Below are positions 21,476 through 35,170 of a stretch of DNA of 41,764 nucleotides, one piece after another (positions within the stretch are counted from its first letter, which is position 1; each line of letters begins with the position of its first letter). Origin of the DNA: a virus. The position numbers were made by a program, and so were the translations under genes. The stretch lies in the IMG/VR virus record IMGVR_UViG_3300005466_000019, positions 1-41,764 of that record; one strand, 5' to 3'. The notes under the pieces are model-generated. The model saw nothing but the letters and a program-made list of their open reading frames with translations, was not told the DNA's origin and made no database searches.

Positions 21476-22024
21476 ATGAAATATTGCACAAGATGTAAAA
21501 TTGAAAAACCGCTAACTGAATTTAATAAACAGGCCGGACTGAAGGATGGGCTTACATATAAATGCAAGCCGTGCGCGTCGGCGTGTGCAAAAGAATGGGC
21601 GAATAAGAATCGAGAGTATGTTCGTGAATACTGCAGAAAAAAATACGCAATGAATCCTCAGCCTAAAAAGGATTCCGCAAAACGATATCGTGAGGCGAAT
21701 TTAGATAAAGCAAGAGAGGCGAACAAAAAGTGGCGCATGAAAAATAAGGAAAAGGCCAGAGACAAATTTCTTTTTGTCAGATATGGGCTTTCCACTGAAA
21801 AATATGAGTCCATGTTCAAATCCCAAAACGGCGGATGCAGGTCGTGCGGAAAACAAAGTTTAGATGGCAAGCGTCTTTTTGTTGACCATGACCATAACAC
21901 CGGAACGGTTCGTGGCCTTCTCTGCCATCATTGTAACGCCGGGATAGGCCATTTCTTCGACGATCCATTTCTTCTTCAGTGTGCCATAAAGTATTTGACA
22001 GAAAGCAATAAGGAGACCGTATGA
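21476..22024 (+). CDS. Endonuclease VII-type HNH nuclease
   Basis: 182 residues. An N-terminal CTRC...CKPC zinc motif, a basic linker of repeated KxYREAN/KKW units, then the recombination endonuclease VII domain: CRSCGKQ, LFVDHDHNTGTVRGLLCHHCNAGIGHF. The family cleaves Holliday junctions and branched DNA; isolated copies in structural operons usually behave as homing-type mobile genes. Its composition is more AT-rich than the flanking capsid gene. Coupled to the next gene by ATGA. Confidence 0.85.
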   Translation: MKYCTRCKIEKPLTEFNKQAGLKDGLTYKCKPCASACAKEWANKNREYVREYCRKKYAMNPQPKKDSAKRYREANLDKAREANKKWRMKNKEKARDKFLFVRYGLSTEKYESMFKSQNGGCRSCGKQSLDGKRLFVDHDHNTGTVRGLLCHHCNAGIGHFFDDPFLLQCAIKYLTESNKETV

Positions 22025-22356
22025 AACTAATAAAATCCCTAGCCTTCCTCTTCGCTCTTTTCTTGGCCGACAACCTTTTAGCCATTGAAAGCGACGCATA
22101 CAAATATTCTCAGTTTAACTCGACAACGACCGTATCGATAATCCCGGTTAAGCTTCACAGCATTAGCGTAACGGCCCCTTTGCCGGTTGCTTTTACTGTC
22201 TACGACAGCACGGCCTCGACCGTCACGTCTCCCATTATTGCTGTCTTTTCTACCTCGACTGTCGGTGGTACTTACATTTTTGACGTTCAAACTCAAAACG
22301 GATTGCAGGTCAACGAAGCGGCAAGCGGGTCTCAAGTTACGGTCAGCTTTCGATAA
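22021..22356 (+). CDS. Secreted protein in the structural module, 111 aa
   Basis: Residues 1-21 are a classic Sec signal peptide: KLIKS, a hydrophobic core (LAFLFALFLADN), and cleavage after LLA. The mature part is beta-rich and Thr/Ser-rich (TTTVSIIPVKLHSISVTAPLPVAFTVYDSTAS), resembling a small immunoglobulin-like or decoration domain. AAGGAG precedes the ATG. Whether it is a virion protein or a secreted host-surface factor cannot be told. Confidence 0.65.
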   Translation: MKLIKSLAFLFALFLADNLLAIESDAYKYSQFNSTTTVSIIPVKLHSISVTAPLPVAFTVYDSTASTVTSPIIAVFSTSTVGGTYIFDVQTQNGLQVNEAASGSQVTVSFR

Positions 22357-22367
22357 GGAGATTAAAA

Positions 22368-32135: not shown

Positions 32136-33909
32136 TCCCGATCAGTATTTAGCCAAATATGAAAACAAGCCTTCTCCCGGGGGATTTGATCCCGACGCCT
32201 ATCTAGCTACTTATGAGAAGCCAAAGAGTGGCGGGTCTGAATTTGCGGCCGGACTTGTAGACTCTCTTAATCCTGATGTAAATGTCCCCAAAGCGTCAGC
32301 TCCAGGTATTTTTTCACGCCTTCTTACTGCCTCTAAGGAGGCCGCCTTAGCTCCTATCGCCCCGTTTATTCCTAGCCTTCGCAAGAGGCTTCTTTCTCCA
32401 CAGGTGGGCCAGTATGGGCCGTCCAAGTTCTTAATGGAAGAGGGACGAAGGCTCAGTAACGTGGTTGACCCATTGGTTGAAGGGGCTCCCGAATCAAAGT
32501 TTTCTCAAGAGAATCCATACATTGGAGCAGCCGTGACTCTTCCGGCCCGGGGTTTAAAAGCCATTGTCCCGCAAGGATTGACCCCCAGAGGGGCAGCTGA
32601 AACTATTGGGAATCAGGCCGTTGGTGAAGTTCTAATTAACCCCGCCATATCCGCTGCTGGCGGTGTGGTGGCTAAAACAGCGGAAAATATCGCGGGGCCA
32701 GCGGCAAGAAGGGCTTTAGGATTTATGAAAACACAACTTAACAAGGTGCAAGGAGGCGTTCCGAGGGCTAACGCTGTCGGACAGGAGATGCTTGACCAGG
32801 GAGTAATTACACCGTTTGCTACCCCGGAGAAGATGCTTTTAAAAGCGGAAGCTCTCAAGAAGTCTTCCGGGGAAGCTATTGGAAATGTAATCAGCGGCAT
32901 AGATAAAGCTTCCACTCCTAAGATTAACGTGCAAACCGTTGCTGATGAAGTTTCAGACCAACTTTTGAATAGGCTAGGACCTTCAGCGACTGATTCTGAA
33001 ATGAAAATGGCTCAGGAAGTCGTTGATAGAATAGCAGCTTATGCCAACAAGGACGGAAAACTTACTTTTAAGGGGGCGCAAGAATTAAAGCAACTTCTCC
33101 AAGAACGAGGGAAAAAGGCATTCACTGACCAGGGGACAGAAAGCATTCGCAAAGAGCTTTATGCGAAAGCCTCTGGGATTGTGAACAGAGCGATTAAAAG
33201 GGGTCTCGGGGAAGCCGGGGAAGAGCTTTCTGGTTCTGGGGCATTAGACAAATATCTAAAAGCGAACCTTACTAAAGGGAAGGCCAATGAAGCAGTTGGC
33301 TCATTGGAAGATTTAGTCAAAAGACGTGCCGGAAATAATCAAGTTTCATTGACAGACTGGGTCTTAGGTTCGGGAGCCCTTGCCGGTGGTCTCGCTACTG
33401 GAGAGGGCGCTAGTGGAGCAATCGCGGCTGGGACTATTGTTGCTGTAAAGAAATTTCTTAACGCTTACGGGAATCAACTGACAGCCACGGGAGCTAACGC
33501 CTTAAAGAGTCTGGTTGAAAAAAACCTTGTTCCAACAAGTCTTGCCCAGGCAGTTCCATCCACAGCAATGGCGTTCGTTGAAAGGCTTAACAAAGGCGAG
33601 CTCCCGGCTCCTACAGGATTTTCTGGAATCATTGCCAGGGCCAAGGCGCGTTTAAATGAGTCTGGCAAGGACCTGCGTCCTACACCAAATGGGTCCGGTG
33701 GAGAAAAAATCGACGGTTCCAGCCTCTCTGACTTCGTAAGAAAAGCCAAAGTAGGGACCAAGTTTACCTACCAAGGCAAAACATTCAAAGTAGTCCCACA
33801 ACCAGGCCGAGACAAAAACACCCTCTCCAGCTTAACCCCGGAGCAAAGGAGGCTCTATGCTTCGTCGAAGTCTGCTTATCGCGGCGCTAATACTTTCGCT
33901 CGGGCATAA
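32125..33909 (+). CDS. Internal virion protein, 594 aa
   Basis: Overlaps the previous gene by 11 bases. The N-terminus carries two near-identical units, FDPDQYLAKYENKPSPGG and FDPDAYLATYEKPKSGG, known from phage ejection proteins. Alanine/glycine-rich membrane-like segments (ALAGGLATGEGASGAIAAGTIVAV) lie at about residues 418-440. Likely the largest ejection protein. C-terminal end is overlapped by the fibre gene. Confidence 0.6.
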   Translation: MAFDPDQYLAKYENKPSPGGFDPDAYLATYEKPKSGGSEFAAGLVDSLNPDVNVPKASAPGIFSRLLTASKEAALAPIAPFIPSLRKRLLSPQVGQYGPSKFLMEEGRRLSNVVDPLVEGAPESKFSQENPYIGAAVTLPARGLKAIVPQGLTPRGAAETIGNQAVGEVLINPAISAAGGVVAKTAENIAGPAARRALGFMKTQLNKVQGGVPRANAVGQEMLDQGVITPFATPEKMLLKAEALKKSSGEAIGNVISGIDKASTPKINVQTVADEVSDQLLNRLGPSATDSEMKMAQEVVDRIAAYANKDGKLTFKGAQELKQLLQERGKKAFTDQGTESIRKELYAKASGIVNRAIKRGLGEAGEELSGSGALDKYLKANLTKGKANEAVGSLEDLVKRRAGNNQVSLTDWVLGSGALAGGLATGEGASGAIAAGTIVAVKKFLNAYGNQLTATGANALKSLVEKNLVPTSLAQAVPSTAMAFVERLNKGELPAPTGFSGIIARAKARLNESGKDLRPTPNGSGGEKIDGSSLSDFVRKAKVGTKFTYQGKTFKVVPQPGRDKNTLSSLTPEQRRLYASSKSAYRGANTFARA

Positions 33910-35170
33910 GCTTTTTGGGGCATCTGAGCGAAGAATCAGCCTAGACCTTGACCAGGCGGATGTTTCGGCTATTAACCAGAACTTCAATAACATCAACAAC
34001 GAGCTAAGGAACATGGTTCATAAGACTTCGACTGAAACGATTCATGGATATAAATACTTCATTAATCCGGTCGATTTCGGAACGGTCACGGCAGATTCGG
34101 GAACAATCACTTCTTTTAATGCAACGAGCGCTTCAGTGACAAATTTAACAGCAACGACAGGAACCATAAATAACATCGTCTCATCCAGTATTGGGACAGA
34201 CCAGGTGGCATACAGCAACGGGACGAAGCTTGTTGGGTCCTCTGGTTTCACCAATAACGGATCGACTCTAGCATATACGACATCCGCAACGTTCGCCACT
34301 TCTAGCGGAAATGTTGGCATTGGGACGACGAGCCCGGAGAGCAAGCTTGAAGTTCAGGGCCTAGAAGGTGCTGACGCTGCATTAACTCTTGATGCAGACG
34401 ACGGGGACGACAATGCGGACACATGGTTTATAACTTCTCAGGCTTCGGACAATGATTTAACAATCAAGAATCATACAACAGAATTAATGAGATTAAACGA
34501 CGACGGAAAAGTCGGCATAAACACAACATCTCCAAATGAAAAACTTGAAGTTGTTGGCGGAAACATAATTATTGGTCAAGGTGGATCAAATAATACGTCT
34601 ATTGGATTTTATAAATTTGGGACCGGATCGGCAGATGACAGGTTCTCAGGGATAGAAGGCTTCCGGGGAGCAGACGCCGCACAAATCGACCTAAGATTTT
34701 ACACATACGGCGGAGATGGCGATCACGGGGAAAGGGTAAGAATCCAGAACAATGGTAAAGTCCATATCCGTCCGTCAGGAACTCCAGACGTTGAGCTTGA
34801 GATTAGTAATGGAGCATCTACTGGTGGCGGGACCGCCCACGCCGCTAGTTTTGCCGCTCACTCTTCAAGGGATTTAAAGTCCCACATTCGGTATTTGAAC
34901 AACGGAGAAAAACTCGTCCTCTATAACGACGTAAAGAACCTTAAACCCGCAGAGTTTAGGTACAAGATTCATAGAAGCTCCACCACAGATGAGCTTATCG
35001 AAGATCCTACCGGCCCACTTCGTAATGGACTAATCCTTGAGGATGTTCCTCCCTCTTTACGTAAACCATACGACAATGACGCTATTTCCCTTAATGACCA
35101 AGTCTTTATTTTACAAGCGGCCATCCAGGTCTTAATCCAGAAAGTTGAAGCCTTGGAAGCAAGGCCTTAA
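33857..35170 (+). CDS. Tail fibre with signal peptide and S74 chaperone domain
   Basis: 437 residues; AAAGGAGG sits five bases before the ATG. Residues 1-22 form a signal peptide (RRSLLIAALILSLGHKLFGA). A beta-helical shaft follows with SGNVGIGTTSPESKLEVQG and GKVGINTTSPNEKLEVVGG repeats. The C-terminus is a peptidase S74 intramolecular chaperone: HSSRDLKSHIRYL, GLILEDVPPSLRK, and the closing coil AIQVLIQKVEALEARP. S74 domains trimerise fibres and cleave themselves off. Confidence 0.8.
   Translation: MLRRSLLIAALILSLGHKLFGASERRISLDLDQADVSAINQNFNNINNELRNMVHKTSTETIHGYKYFINPVDFGTVTADSGTITSFNATSASVTNLTATTGTINNIVSSSIGTDQVAYSNGTKLVGSSGFTNNGSTLAYTTSATFATSSGNVGIGTTSPESKLEVQGLEGADAALTLDADDGDDNADTWFITSQASDNDLTIKNHTTELMRLNDDGKVGINTTSPNEKLEVVGGNIIIGQGGSNNTSIGFYKFGTGSADDRFSGIEGFRGADAAQIDLRFYTYGGDGDHGERVRIQNNGKVHIRPSGTPDVELEISNGASTGGGTAHAASFAAHSSRDLKSHIRYLNNGEKLVLYNDVKNLKPAEFRYKIHRSSTTDELIEDPTGPLRNGLILEDVPPSLRKPYDNDAISLNDQVFILQAAIQVLIQKVEALEARP

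Follow-up and report, generated by a model that had tools for sequence, protein, structure and literature searches.

Nozzle proteins of the P22 gp10/T7 gp12/SU10/Pam1 type (tubeB, head closure Hc3) are β-propellers encoded right after the adaptor gene in the virion operons of podoviruses. In P22, the gp10-class protein joins the particle right after packaging and helps to retain the DNA. As far as we know, nozzles of this type carry no signal peptide and are joined to the portal vertex in the cytoplasm; indeed, to our knowledge the assembly of tailed-phage virions is held to be wholly cytoplasmic.

Sec signals are nevertheless found on other phage and phage-like proteins. In filamentous phages (Ff), type I Sec signal sequences precede the virion proteins pVIII and pIII (PMC4823517), but the mature proteins stay anchored by a transmembrane helix in the inner membrane, where assembly takes place as the DNA filament is extruded. 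Some lysis proteins of tailed phages (SAR endolysins and spanins) have signal peptides, JG068 being a tailed phage that makes use of the host Sec pathway (PMC3765740), but these are not virion proteins. The MAT fibres of Bdellovibrio, both with and without an S74 domain, are phage-fibre-like trimers with a signal peptide ahead of a conserved β-rich domain of ~130 aa; they are, however, cellular surface adhesins of the predator, encoded outside any phage operon. In a published survey, the fact that phage target proteins lack signal peptides was taken to support their phage origin (PMC6199706). Our literature search, which covered open-access papers, found no report of virion proteins of tailed phages bearing signal peptides, nor of tail assembly in the periplasm.

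The DNA analysed here (hereafter, the window) is the 41,764-nucleotide IMG/VR record IMGVR_UViG_3300005466_000019, derived from a tailed, endolysin-encoding dsDNA phage. Signal peptides on the nozzle and fibres of this and related uncultured podoviruses suggest that their tails are made beyond the inner membrane and joined to heads at lysis.

Genome organization and relatives

The window is terminally redundant (positions 1-50 are identical to 41715-41764) and encodes an integrase, the phage being temperate; no tRNA was found in it. All genes described below are on the (+) strand. Those for the terminase large subunit (14036..15478; phrog_2 and phage tblastn), portal (17143..19134; phrog_332/phrog_1216), putative scaffold (19378..20328; assigned by position and composition, with homologues in 8 genomes) and major capsid protein (20358..21395; phrog_1357, E 1e-20) are followed by three glycosyltransferase genes lying within the virion operon (23117..26594; Pfam), syntenic homologues of which occur in 12/12 genomes of the clade described below, and by the head-tail adaptor gene (26497..27183; SU10_adaptor, Pfam PF24175, E 4e-19). 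Three putative ejection proteins (genes at 29918, 31152 and 32125; 29918..33909) are encoded further downstream; the product of 31152 matches DNA transfer/virion proteins of Myxococcus phage Mx8 (E 5e-21) and P22-like phages, while the other two were assigned by position. The lysis genes are those for an endolysin (35170-35664; phrog_315, E 5e-47) and a putative holin (35730-36011), the latter recognized by its hydrophobic segments. Signal peptides are absent from the terminase, portal, scaffold, capsid, adaptor and ejection proteins and, in contrast to SAR endolysins, from the endolysin.

Close relatives of the nozzle, fibre or adaptor were not found among sequenced phages, where the only matches were remote ones to the terminase and ejection proteins and, via the homologue L055, to the nozzle of the Page group. 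One terminase scan of GTDB genomes gave no match, and a broader scan yielded relatives at just 28-35%, located on contigs from MAGs of Patescibacteria, Verrucomicrobiota and Fibrobacterota.

Signal peptides on four late proteins

The earlier note had assigned Sec signal peptides to the products of the genes at 22021, 22368, 27185 and 33857, and our analysis bears this out for 4/4. The N-termini, with the predicted cleavage site marked by a caret, are MKLIKSLAFLFALFLADNLLA^IES (22021), MKRISLAGFLVGLLSSGAFA^GPD (22368), MKLSRFLPFFVFLLPASIKA^ETQ (27185) and MLRRSLLIAALILSLGHKLFG^ASE (33857). They display the traits of type I signals, namely a positive n-region, a hydrophobic h-region and small residues at -3/-1, except that the residue at -3 of the nozzle (27185) is Ile. 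With a home-made score built on the n-, h- and c-regions, the four proteins obtained 6.3-8.4, compared with 6.7-10.0 for six E. coli signal peptides, and the threshold was met by 0.6% of shuffled N-termini from the window. When each N-terminus was shuffled with its own composition, the observed score was matched in 7/2000 (22021), 0/2000 (22368), 25/2000 (27185) and 14/2000 (33857) cases.

Strong ribosome-binding sites are located 4-7 bases 5' of the start in three of the four genes (AAGGAG for 22021 and 22368, AAGGAGG for 33857); the start of 22021 overlaps the upstream gene via ATGA, and that of 27185 lies one base past the stop codon of the adaptor gene, several nozzle homologues having a start that overlaps the preceding stop as ATGA, TTGA or CTGA. 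Since the next methionine of the nozzle is residue 39, and a start there would truncate the conserved core GLxN, a downstream start is unlikely. The refuting condition of the earlier note, true starts further downstream, is thus not borne out.

Identity of the nozzle

The gene at 27185 (27185..29908) encodes a protein of 907 aa, the signal peptide of which comprises residues 1-20 (27185-27244). It had been labelled a tail hub; instead, gene order, profile links and the predicted fold, a β-propeller like those of solved podovirus nozzles, agree that it is a tail nozzle of the P22 gp10/T7 gp12 class. The gene is directly downstream of the adaptor gene, as in the known systems. Searches against Pfam and phrog profiles gave no match of the window protein to a known nozzle family, and a PDB sequence profile search gave just one short match, to dispase autolysis-inducing protein; its remote homologue L062, however, matches phrog_578 (head closure Hc3) and another homologue, L008, matches phrog_376 (tail protein). 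The fold was examined on an AlphaFold2 model of the homologue L057 (pLDDT 70; only 28 for the window protein's own model), which in foldseek matched the nozzles of LME-1, Pan3, P22 (gp10; E 1.9e-8, TMt 0.67), Pam1, T7 and SU10. In this model the signal peptide is disordered and the folded part extends from residue 25 on. Likewise, the alignment of the Page nozzle with that of L055 begins at L055 residue 21, immediately past the signal peptide of the latter. A single nozzle gene was found in the window and, as the window is terminally redundant, the signal-bearing copy should therefore be the virion copy.

Conservation of the signals among related viruses

Automatic calling recognized signal peptides in 9/15 nozzle matches; it missed the starts of three others (L051, L058 and L061), which were then set by hand, and the remaining 3/15 are outgroups. 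Thus, 12/12 nozzles of the clade carry a signal peptide, at identities down to about 30%, and the signal is retained while its sequence drifts. Signal-bearing nozzles form one clade (support 100/100), outside of which fall the signal-less nozzles, those of Bacillus phage Page, Mx8, the Manatee Spring phages and two remote IMG/VR contigs. Because the nozzle signals go back to one origin, the 12 cases are not independent. The L055 nozzle possesses a lipobox (LAGC), which would imply lipidation rather than type I cleavage.

No signal peptide was detected in 70 homologues of the terminase, portal, scaffold, major capsid, adaptor and ejection proteins (0/70), and among the late genes the signals are restricted to outer tail and fibre-like proteins. 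The fibres of relatives are also signal-bearing; accordingly, the relatives do keep the signals, a check that the earlier note had proposed. In one relative, G008, the head-tail adaptor itself bears a signal peptide; a search for relatives of G008 returned only G008 itself.

Paired cysteines in the nozzle

The nozzle alignment contains two pairs of cysteine columns, each present or absent in exact concert and only in signal-bearing nozzles, a further difference from the known nozzles. In the window nozzle, Cys222 (27848-27850) and Cys283 (28031-28033) occupy columns that gain and lose cysteine in this manner and constitute a putative disulfide pair; in the L057 model Cys129 faces Cys138 in a predicted hairpin. 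Such concerted pairs are what would be expected of disulfides formed outside the cytoplasm. One of the pairs tracks a subclade split and just the other crosses subclades; the G007 nozzle is devoid of both.

Fibres and small signal-bearing proteins

The protein of 437 aa encoded at 33857..35170 (signal peptide, residues 1-21; 33857-33919) matches tail fibre profiles phrog_9942/18345 (E 6e-11/8e-11). Its homologue in G003 keeps the signal peptide and is 52% identical in the mature N-terminal part; a conserved N-terminus with a variable tip is the pattern of virion fibres. An S74 domain had been ascribed to this protein, but Pfam, NCBIfam and PDB sequence searches did not retrieve one, and the label is left with the motif SSRDLK, in which Ser replaces the Asp of the catalytic motif S(D)xxxK found in the C-terminal domain of S74 fibres. 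The best PDB sequence match was to the Bdellovibrio MAT protein Bd2133 (E 8e-4), a weak one with its best stretch confined to residues 208-240. In several fibre families conservation begins at the predicted +1 residue, the preceding signal peptides being variable; for example, the motif ^DRLGSLRSxxDVLLTTQ starts at +1 in four genomes, identity being 49% in the signal peptide and 74% in the mature part.

Two smaller proteins are encoded upstream of the glycosyltransferases. SP1, a putative exported protein of 111 aa (22021..22356; signal peptide, residues 1-21, 22021-22083), has a homologue in L004/G001 (11108-11536) that keeps the signal. SP2, a tail-fibre-like protein of 243 aa (22368..23099; signal peptide, residues 1-20, 22368-22427), matches tail fibre phrog_9942 (E 2.6e-6), and its homologues in L002, G001 and G003 are all signal-bearing. 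Of the four proteins previously placed in the virion module, SP1 and SP2 may not be virion proteins. A tail-fibre-like, signal-bearing protein (p64) is also encoded by Mx8, the nozzle of which (p52) has no signal peptide.

Proposed assembly in two compartments and alternative explanations

We propose, with a probability of roughly 0.6, that the outer parts of the tail leave the cytoplasm via Sec, fold in the periplasm and join heads made in the cytoplasm once the holin has opened the inner membrane. The cytoplasm would be the site of synthesis and assembly for the head, the portal, the adaptor and the ejection proteins, while the nozzle, together with the fibres and some of the small proteins resembling fibres, would cross the inner membrane by virtue of cleavable type I signals, lose these and fold in the periplasm, where disulfides of the nozzle propeller would form in most members. 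After holin and endolysin had opened the inner membrane and wall, exported nozzles and fibres would come together with packaged, adaptor-bearing heads, and tails would be completed at or after lysis. A point against this scheme is that, unlike in P22, heads would need to retain their DNA with nothing but the adaptor until lysis. Export, cleavage, disulfide bonding and joining at lysis are inferred. That these viruses represent a lineage with a two-compartment tail, its nozzle and fibres secreted and disulfide-bonded in the periplasm and the particle infectious only upon lysis, has about even odds.

The interpretation of the earlier note, which offered either export with assembly outside the cytoplasm or membrane anchoring, is supported in part. 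Uncleaved signal anchors might tether both nozzle and fibres to the inner membrane as the place of head docking and tail building, or be inserted into the membrane of the next host at entry. The hydrophobic core and positive charge on all of these N-termini would suit such anchors, and separated parts would not need to be united at lysis. We nevertheless consider anchoring rather unlikely and favour export with cleavage because of the clade-wide conservation, the cleavage-type sites (a small -1 residue in 12/12 nozzles, mostly Ala, with +1 often acidic), the conservation of mature motifs from +1 and the concerted cysteine pairs in the propeller.

Alternatively, SP1, SP2 and perhaps the fibre could be adhesins or exclusion factors exported to the surface of the lysogen or infected cell, comparable to the MAT fibres, which are signal-bearing and located on the predator surface (PMC10769870). 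Temperance and the match to Bd2133 are in line with this unlikely explanation, but it does not account for the nozzle, the sole one found in a complete genome, nor does it agree with the late-operon position of the fibres and the virion-fibre pattern of 33857. Inefficient signals might instead leave most of the nozzle in the cytoplasm, to be assembled there with its N-terminus while an exported fraction serves another purpose. The variable signal strength of the clade nozzles (scores of 5.3-9.5) and the usual P22-type assembly order are compatible with dual use, which is nonetheless improbable, given that all members keep the signal despite high divergence and that an uncleaved hydrophobic extension of 20 residues would seem costly on a cytoplasmic hexamer. 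As for an artefact from N-termini that are hydrophobic by chance or from misassigned start codons, non-standard starts are required in two relatives (CTG in L061; for L058, ACG or another), but such an artefact is extremely unlikely in view of the strong ribosome-binding sites, the stop-start overlaps, the conservation in 12 nozzles and the 0.6% background, and was rejected.

With a conserved Sec signal on the nozzle itself, the compartment in which a podovirus is assembled becomes testable, and the signal-bearing clade offers a possible explanation of why a tail machine should contain disulfides. It also suggests where secreted adhesins of the fibre type, those of Bdellovibrio among them, may have come from, and cautions that a signal peptide on a fibre gene is no proof of cellular origin.

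Genome of the window virus

At 41,764 bp the window covers an entire virus record from IMG/VR. It carries a 50-bp terminal direct repeat (1–50 = 41715–41764) and is therefore probably a complete genome. Judged from its sequence, it is that of a temperate podovirus, encoding terminase, portal, scaffold, capsid, adaptor, nozzle, ejection proteins, fibre and endolysin, with an integrase on the opposite strand to the virion genes. Three glycosyltransferases (23117–26594), conserved in all twelve genomes of the clade described below, lie within the virion operon ahead of the adaptor and may attach sugars to proteins of the virion or of the exported tail, or modify the receptor. 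A small lipobox protein with a BamE-like motif (38804–39121, minus strand; counterpart in the relative G003 at 33532–33840, minus strand) adjoins the integrase. Its Pfam BamE match (E 0.015) is under the cut-off; it is possibly an outer-membrane or exclusion factor and hints at a diderm host.

Signal peptides and identity of the nozzle

The earlier note had proposed that the genes starting at 22021, 22368, 27185 and 33857 begin with Sec signal peptides, and the n-h-c architecture was indeed found in all four. The calls rest on a home-made score, the threshold of which was reached by 17 of 2950 shuffled window N-termini; for each of the four genes, almost no shuffle of its own N-terminal residues scored as high as the gene itself. 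Shine-Dalgarno motifs back the starts of 22021, 22368 and 33857, and coupling to the adaptor stop backs that of 27185, where starting at the next in-frame methionine would delete the conserved core.

Direct profile searches with the product of 27185 gave no match. We identify it as the nozzle because its gene is located directly 3' of the SU10-type adaptor, the remote homologue L062 matches the head-closure family phrog_578, and an AlphaFold2 model of the homologue L057 (14 sequences, pLDDT 70, pTM 0.60) resembles the solved nozzles of LME-1, Pan3, P22, Pam1, T7 and SU10. In this model residues 1–24 are disordered and the fold starts past the signal. The S74 assignment of the fibre is unconfirmed and putative only.

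Distribution of the signals

Relatives, gathered stepwise from IMG/VR with portal, capsid, terminase and nozzle queries, keep the signals, a point that the earlier note had left to be checked. All 12 distinct clade nozzles possess one, at identities down to ~30%, and form a single clade (support 100/100) in a maximum-likelihood tree that leaves out Mx8 and has long outgroup branches. Signals are absent from the nozzles of L062, L063, two Manatee Spring phages, Mx8 (p52) and Bacillus phage Page, all outside the clade. They are retained on homologues of 22021, 22368 and 27185 in G001 (25 kb), and of 22368, 27185 and 33857 in G003 (42.6 kb), which is terminally redundant like the window.

Two of the twelve nozzles have non-standard start codons, no ATG, GTG or TTG preceding the signal: that of L061 (near 9999) seemingly starts at CTG, overlapping the adaptor stop, and that of L058 (near 9945) at ACG or another codon. 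L055 has a perfect lipobox (LAGC) within its nozzle signal (8721–8780), and its nozzle might therefore be lipidated.

In a homology table spanning 17 genomes or contigs, with nozzle starts corrected by hand, signals were present on all clade nozzles and on homologues of 22021 (2/2), 22368 (4/4) and 33857 (2/2), and on none of the TerL (n=8), portal (n=10), scaffold (n=8), capsid (n=13) or ejection proteins (n=11+3+5); none of the 12 clade adaptors had one. A Fisher test of 12/12 versus 0/70, ignoring relatedness, gave p = 1e-14. Additional signal-bearing fibre families are unrelated to the window's fibres, and in several of these a motif is kept from the predicted +1 residue, e.g. DRLGSLRSxxDVLLTTQ (four genomes). 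Judged on the sequences, there is strong support for a podovirus clade whose nozzle and fibres carry conserved Sec signals.

The adaptor of G008 (L037:1730–2458, minus strand; SU10_adaptor, Pfam E 7.5e-21) opens with a signal peptide, MKLKRIWVLLSVLLLACNISFA, and is flanked by three more signal-bearing genes; a search for relatives of G008 found no second such adaptor. Signal-bearing genes also occur near capsid, terminase or adaptor genes in remoter podovirus contigs (L048:17513–20189, L049:12769–16207, L038:9073–10356), two of them set in Patescibacteria MAGs; the L038 nozzle lacks a signal.

Assembly of the tail

As the simplest account we hypothesize a two-compartment route. Heads and adaptors would be made in the cytoplasm, and Sec would carry the outer tail parts into the periplasm, where they would mature. 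Cytoplasmic endolysin and a putative holin would then free the heads to meet those parts. Going by a title in PMC3741392, older work combined heads with baseplate parts in vitro to complete P22. The main difficulty for the route is retention of DNA in heads until the nozzle joins.

It is also possible that the signals are retained membrane anchors, that their bearers are non-virion adhesins, or that these proteins have a dual localisation; 22021 and 22368 may lie outside the virion. Bearing on the nozzle itself are two column pairs in which cysteines are gained and lost in exact concert among the twelve, neither pair occurring in the five aligned outgroup nozzles. One tracks a subclade, as did the perfect pairs found in control proteins, and common ancestry could by itself account for it; the second (Cys222/Cys283 in the window) cuts across subclades. 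In L057 the first of these pairs, Cys129/Cys138, is opposed across a predicted hairpin (strands 127–132 and 135–140). The concerted pairs suggest, with moderate and independent weight, that the nozzle folds in an oxidising compartment, as the two-compartment route would have it.

Among PDB sequences the fibre (33857–35170) best matches Bd2133, a MAT protein of Bdellovibrio (E 8e-4), and secreted predator fibres and signal-bearing phage fibres may therefore share a history. A strong signal peptide also opens Mx8 p64 (AF396866.1 36781–37854; L043:18782–19855), a tail-fibre-like protein (phrog_28766/9942/11355), which makes Mx8 a cultured system for testing exported fibres.
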